From: Cristatella mucedo
Taxonomy: Eukaryota > Bryozoa > Phylactolaemata > Cristatellidae
Direction: 5' to 3'
Assembly: GCA_009760855.2 (NCBI GenBank)
Contig: WPIO01000055.1
Coordinates: 2,630,001 to 2,694,000, forward strand
DNA: 64,000 nt
Shown: positions 4,649 through 40,687 of the stretch, piece after piece
Numbering within the stretch: the stretch's first letter is position 1
Layout of the letters: every line of letters begins with the position of its first letter
Made by a program: the position numbers and the translations under genes
Notes under the pieces: generated by a model
What the model was told of the DNA's origin: nothing
Databases searched by the model: none
What the model saw: the letters and a program-made list of their open reading frames with translations, nothing else

Positions 4649-4756
4649 GTGCAGCTGGCCTTTGCGCTTGCCATTCTGCTGACATTCTCGTCGGCCTTGG
4701 CAGCAGCGCCTCGTCGGCAAAGACCTCACATCGTAGTTGTGACCGTGGATGACGTG
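4649..4756 (+). CDS. Sulfatase-like gene, first recognised exon: leader and VDD motif
   Basis: This encodes 36 residues: a hydrophobic stretch ([10 protein letters not shown]), a small-residue SALAAA end resembling a signal-peptidase site, then [10 protein letters not shown], which is the first beta strand and metal-binding Asp pair of sulfatases. The donor is GTAAGA at 4757. No ATG occurs in this frame back to the preceding stop. A CTG-rich pyrimidine tract ending CCAG lies just before 4649, so an acceptor there is the best reading and the Met comes from an upstream exon. The start coordinate is the least certain part. Confidence 0.7.

Positions 4757-40687: not shown

Follow-up and report, generated by a model that had tools for sequence, protein, structure and literature searches.

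A probable pseudo-sulfatase gene with an arylsulfatase B-like fold in the genome of Cristatella mucedo

Familiar examples of pseudoenzymes come from kinases, phosphatases and heparanase. The sulfatase reaction needs the formylglycine cysteine, the DN metal pair and both histidines, and in human arylsulfatase B (ARSB) we take the catalytic and metal site to consist of ten residues: D53, D54, C91, R95, K145, H147, H242, D300, N301 and K318. Five calcium ligands are presumably provided, in the same numbering, by D53, D54, D300 and N301 together with the formylglycine. In the literature that we surveyed by titles and the beginnings of abstracts, none of the matches listed named an animal pseudo-sulfatase, and the nearest statement concerned nine Lentisphaerae and Planctomycetes sequences that may be inactive (PMC5066984).

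Here we describe a sulfatase-like gene in a 64,000-bp stretch of DNA (the window; G000:C507:2630001-2694000) from the 572-Mb, 688-contig genome of the bryozoan Cristatella mucedo. The fold of its product looks preserved and the chemical machinery is mostly gone, so that the product is a probable 'dead' enzyme retained for some other role. Judging from the sequence, we consider it probable that the gene encodes a pseudo-sulfatase, in which an ARSB-like fold was kept and evolved as a protein without formylglycine or calcium chemistry. The gene combines the three attributes of a pseudoenzyme, namely a kept fold, lost catalytic residues and maintenance, the last being read from sequence statistics and not from dN/dS.

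We identified ten exons on the basis of reading frames, homology, a splice scan and spliced alignment (Table 1). A stop-to-stop frame scan revealed sulfatase-like stretches corresponding to exons 1, 2, 4, 7 and 10; exon 8 shares the stretch of exon 7 in a different frame, and exons 3, 5, 6 and 9 were recovered by scanning the gaps between the exons found at the outset. Borders were set by splice scores and phases. As a cross-check, the 1fsu chain of human ARSB was aligned to window positions 4001-41000 by spliced dynamic programming, with stops and frameshifts tolerated but penalized. The highest-scoring path contained neither and reached 383, compared to 98-185 in nine controls (two stretches of the minus strand, another of the plus strand, a reversed profile and five shuffled ones, with one of the nine being a shorter, 23-kb stretch), which rules out chance as the source of the alignment. 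This automatic path matched all ten exons, with exons 1 (from 4724), 5 (from 26865), 9 (from 35694) and 10 (40304-40507) shorter than in the final model, for which the borders of these four were taken from the splice scan. Four extra short pieces of the path (20725-20776, 22454-22482, 32598-32650 and 35318-35334) were discarded as filler.

Table 1. Exons of the sulfatase-like gene, other features of the window and related loci in the same genome
Feature	Position	Strand	Content
Exon 1, as far as defined	4649..4756	+	21-residue hydrophobic signal-peptide-like stretch, then 12-residue D53/D54 segment with both Asp kept
Exon 2	9517..9676	+	A-H-A-S-R in place of the CxPSR loop (C91A and P93A, with R95 retained)
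Exon 3	12133..12245	+	Last codon, next to the splice donor, is CAA (K145Q)
Exon 4	19921..20034	+	WDLG for WHLG (H147 to D); 11-residue scaffold motif retained
Exon 5	26805..26930	+	Placed by gap scan, splice scores and alignment
Exon 6	30189..30318	+	PLFLYVALQ kept, followed by 13 residues that replace the HxPLQ loop (H242R; six-residue insertion in the alignment)
Exon 7	31378..31531	+	LSSAAPGGG replaces the DNGG metal loop (D300, N301 lost); weak donor
Exon 8	31692..31855	+	14-residue segment with K318 to R; second, 10-residue segment
Exon 9	35597..35766	+	22-residue segment
Exon 10 and stop	40166..40687	+	19-residue segment, GWTPW-like end; C-terminal extension with hydrophobic stretch
Reverse transcriptase fragments, LINE-type elements	45670-46032, 52744-53184, perhaps 44058-44423
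Two similar long ORFs within introns	15599-16276; 32498-33202	+; -	Resemble the terminal part of a retroelement frame
Open frame	61000-61668	+	Many Cys and N-glycosylation motifs; Ig-like on visual inspection
Very long (GA/CT)n simple repeats	1062-1303, 2946-3533, 4141-4302, 29649-30167 and others
Tandem cluster of ARSB-like genes	C656, about 1500000-1568000 (L013-L020)
Two ARSB-like genes	C441:820229-870556 (L034, L037, L044, L045)	opposite strands	Longer DNGG loop

All nine junctions are GT-AG with matching phase in the splice scan, the weakest being the donor at 31531 at the end of exon 7 (score 0.1). For exon 10 the acceptor before 40166 scores best, with possible in-frame alternatives at 40199, 40244 and neighbouring positions. 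The joined coding sequence of 1,761 nt forms a 586-codon frame whose sole stop is at its end, as opposed to 21.9 stops expected at the intron triplet rate and 17 and 15 in its other two frames. The initial annotation, which had proposed that ten exons join without a stop or frameshift, is thereby reproduced in span, exon count and reading frame. At the 5' end, the first-exon frame contains no ATG, and the 4.6 kb available upstream yielded no ATG exon whose phase-0 donor scored at least 2.5. None of 27 weaker or other-phase candidate start exons was convincing or adopted; one of these 27, a phase-1 exon at 4067-4091, had the best donor and would skip the signal-like stretch.

Assignment to the sulfatase family is clear for the spliced protein, which matched Pfam Sulfatase (PF00884) significantly over nearly the whole domain (E = 1.1e-27; 97.5 bits with a cut-off of 25; profile positions 1-300 of 301), with no other Pfam domain at E up to 0.01. 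Pfam scans of the five single stop-to-stop frames containing exons 1, 2, 4, 7 and 10 yielded no sulfatase, and a genome-wide Pfam family search at E up to 0.001 missed both the window gene and the related genes on contig C441. Human ARSB (1fsu) was the best of 49 matched PDB sequences (E = 3.5e-40), and together these matches bear out the recognizable arylsulfatase B-like fold noted earlier. The window protein is colinear with ARSB along the catalytic domain as well as at the GWTPW/GVWGPW end, but identity is only 30% (127 of 420 aligned residues), the HxPLQVP loop is replaced, the WPCQPSC cysteines are gone and a C-terminal extension is present. It also shares fold and scaffold motifs with bacterial S1_19 sulfatases (9hh3; the next matches were the iota-carrageenan sulfatase structures 6bia and 6b0k), and the two diverge from animal ARSB about equally.

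We aligned the window protein with ARSB, bacterial S1_19 and four gene models from the same genome (C77, C656a, C656b and C656d) and found that only three of the ten catalytic and metal residues are kept: D53, D54 and R95. The remainder are substituted (C91 to A, K145 to Q, H147 to D, H242 to R and K318 to R) or, in the case of D300 and N301, lost within LSSAAPGGG, where one alignment pairs them with L and S and another with A and P. Each of these losses had been listed in the initial annotation and recurs in our alignments. Measured against formylglycine-dependent sulfatases (SulfAtlas S1), A-H-A-S-R departs from the formylglycine motif C/S-x-P/A-x-R, the calcium site retains only D53 and D54 (three of five ligands are lost, along with the HxPLQVP loop), and R95 alone is kept from the set K145, H147, H242, K318 and R95. 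As the formylglycine cysteine, the DN pair and both histidines are absent, the known sulfatase reaction cannot run, and we infer that the protein cannot hydrolyse sulfate esters.

To compare catalytic loss with scaffold retention, five enzymes (C77, C656a, C656b, 1fsu and 9hh3) were used to define 87 invariant columns, comprising the ten catalytic residues and 77 others; C656d was excluded because its model is incomplete. All ten catalytic residues are invariant in this set, counting residue 91 of 1fsu, for which the PDB sequence gives A, as the Cys that it is known to be. Two reference models have weak points: the C-terminal pieces of C656a come from further along the cluster, and it may be a chimera there, while C656b has a one-base frame step, which was dropped. 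The window protein keeps 3 of 10 catalytic residues and 49 of 77 other invariants (two-sided Fisher's exact test, P = 0.08), or 50 of 76 others in a second alignment. Scaffold positions are therefore lost too (28 of 77 or 26 of 76), including the HxPLQVP loop, several glycines and the ARSB WPCQPSC cysteines. A sharper comparison comes from leaving out one enzyme at a time: each of the five keeps 10/10 catalytic residues, including S1_19, which relative to the other four enzymes retains 76 of 132 other invariants, compared to 75 of 141 for the window protein (the denominators are unequal because the fragments cover different extents). At similar overall divergence, the catalytic set is thus intact in one protein and mostly gone in the other (10/10 versus 3/10; P about 0.003, calculated by hand). 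The earlier proposal that substitutions are concentrated at chemistry positions is accordingly clear against S1_19 and borderline in the simple Fisher test.

We next considered relatives in the same genome using two protein searches, one with exons 1, 2, 4, 7, 8 and 10 (best 21 candidates) and one with exons 1-10 (best 30 candidates). Between them, window exons 2-10 appeared once each, exon 1 did not appear, and no second copy of the gene was found among these candidates; the other matches listed lay on C441, C77 and C656. Among the matches listed, the C441 pair came nearest to the window gene over exon 8 (51% and 45% identity, plus one weak match). Wherever they could be read, catalytic residues are kept in these relatives: 10/10 in C77, C656a and C656b, and 6/6 in the covered part of C441a (GKWHLG, PHGP, SSD|NGG and GTKG), the CxPSR exon lying outside it. 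These relatives on C656, C77 and C441 are apparently active enzymes. The C656 cluster contains four models with catalytic residues kept in their exons (two have a one-base frame step and one is incomplete), as well as a broken copy. Low-scoring paths from the modelling of relatives were set aside as noise.

Gene structure and local motifs link the window gene to these enzymes. It shares a phase-1 intron before GMMS/GMVS/AYLAS with C77 and C441a, a phase-0 intron before PLFL with C77 (other introns differ), and an SGSNxPLR loop with both C441 genes. In C441a an intron splits the K145 codon (AA|A), and the window intron lies one base away, after a codon that is now CAA. Another C441a intron falls exactly between D300 and N301 (D|N) and a C77 intron lies within the D300 codon, whereas the window gene has none there. 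Since K145 and D300/N301 are located at exon borders in relatives, a change of splice border is a possible route by which they were lost; this is an idea suggested by the intron positions, not a result.

The main question is whether the gene is maintained as a protein or is a former sulfatase gene that lost its function and drifts, open by luck. In two phylogenetic trees the branch of the window protein measured 1.83 and 1.35 substitutions per site, far above that of active animal enzymes, indicating that constraint has been loose or has shifted. Its placement relative to animal ARSB was weakly supported in the first tree (37 and 53); in the second, the other animal sequences formed a clade (support 97) that excluded it, leaving it beside the bacterial outgroup, perhaps through long-branch attraction. 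This long branch, the missing start codon and the loss of seven catalytic residues, which decay could produce, all favour a pseudogene, but the coding sequence argues otherwise. When we simulated neutral decay from the C77 coding sequence, thereby assuming a C77-like starting point, and let mean identity with three relatives drop from 0.47 to 0.31, 0.24 substitutions per site were needed and all 300 runs gained stops (mean 8.3, minimum 2); about 33 indels would be expected at an assumed 0.1 per substitution. The window gene has no stops and no frameshifts, in addition to its nine canonical junctions. Moreover, 83 of 92 columns that are hydrophobic in all five enzymes stay hydrophobic, and where such columns changed to a residue unseen in the references, 28 of 37 residues were hydrophobic compared to 54.5% expected from single-base changes (P = 0.012). 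GC content at third positions is 0.738 versus 0.50 in introns and exceeds flank GC in nine of ten exons (the exception being exon 3). The broken ARSB-like exon on C656, which is 66-72% identical to its sibling and carries both a frameshift and a Cys-to-Arg change, is how real decay looks in this family, and the window gene looks quite different. By these measures the gene is not a freshly dead pseudogene, and a pseudogene of any age is unlikely, although a late loss following long constrained evolution as a pseudoenzyme is possible. The proposal of selection for a non-catalytic protein is thus supported by the open frame, third-position GC, core and scaffold, and is tempered by the long branch.

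An error of model or assembly, such that alternative exons would restore the catalytic residues, is highly improbable. The gene lacks a start exon, has one weak donor and contains introns of up to 7.7 kb that could hide exons; nevertheless, the altered residues lie inside exons that align on both sides with scaffold motifs, the 37-kb profile search allowing stops and frameshifts picked these same exons (some of them shorter), and the genome-wide search with the full protein returned exons 2-10 once each among its best 30 candidates. As far as is known, active members of the alkaline-phosphatase-type fold need metal and a nucleophile at the formylglycine and DN places. A neofunctionalized enzyme, with new chemistry in a rebuilt site (for example, R95, D53, D54, R242 and D147), would be consistent with the kept fold, the three original site residues that stay and the charged ones gained, but is very unlikely given an Ala at the formylglycine place, His and Ala as its neighbours, and no DN metal pair. 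A structural protein whose fold provides a scaffold for extracellular matrix or adhesion, and does not specifically recognize sulfate, agrees with the pseudo-sulfatase reading in its pseudoenzyme part and differs in function. Sea urchin arylsulfatase is a matrix component, for which the titles and abstract beginnings listed included no paper. One report implicates sperm-surface arylsulfatase A, an active enzyme, in zona binding, possibly via sulfated sugars, and this provides a precedent for an adhesive sulfatase (PMC7827414). We regard this structural role as having a low probability: no matrix assembly domain was seen, Sulfatase being the protein's sole domain at the threshold above, and sequence does not separate such a role from glycan binding.

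Several other features were observed in the window and genome. Pfam matches to the LINE-type fragments were RVT_1 at 2e-05 and 9.5e-09, of which only the second passes the curated cut-off, with an endonuclease-like match at 0.0086 that falls below its cut-off, and neither the two intronic ORFs nor the Cys-rich open frame had a Pfam match at E up to 0.01. The (GA/CT)n repeats also occur at other loci of the genome (for example, L002, L011 and L037). On contig C688, mitochondrial COX1 reads best with TGA as Trp, ATA as Met and AGA/AGG as Ser, as in the invertebrate mitochondrial code, which was chosen by eye against usual COX1 motifs and points to an invertebrate, probably a protostome; C166, C83, C549 and C299 carry apparent nuclear pieces of COX1.

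If the gene does encode a pseudo-sulfatase, its hydrophobic N-terminus (the first Met being absent from the model) would direct the protein into the secretory pathway, and the C-terminal hydrophobic stretch may tether it to a membrane, although with a best 19-residue mean of 1.5 and an internal Arg it is weak for an anchor. The protein would then act by binding, the simplest remaining use of the fold, for which sperm-surface arylsulfatase A (PMC7827414) and the pseudoenzyme HPSE2 (PMC12406646) are precedents. The old pocket is predicted to place three arginines (R95 kept, H242R and K318R) beside three acids (D53, D54 and H147D), an arrangement that could hold a sulfated glycan without cutting it, and sulfated-glycan binding is perhaps the leading candidate function. 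The initial annotation proposed this role or the regulation of active paralogues, both of which are hypothetical. Binding in this pocket is uncertain, since the retained D53 and D54 would repel sulfate without calcium. Such a protein might serve as a lectin-like receptor, an adhesion protein or a decoy shielding substrates from active relatives. We know of no earlier animal sulfatase turned non-hydrolysing glycan receptor or decoy, and the most specific version of the proposal, a membrane-tethered, non-hydrolysing receptor or decoy for sulfated glycans whose active site was partly lost at splice junctions, is doubtful.

A useful model is heparanase 2 (HPSE2), which differs from sulfatases in fold and enzyme class. 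HPSE2 is described as a pseudoenzyme in glycosaminoglycan metabolism that has a catalytic paralogue, and it illustrates how an inactive family member may oppose an active one (PMC12406646). According to the same report, HPSE2 is present in major metazoan lineages (PMC12406646), whereas the window gene is known from one genome. If it proves to be expressed and conserved, sulfated-glycan biology would gain a counterpart of HPSE2, and the gene would show what the sulfatase fold does without catalysis.
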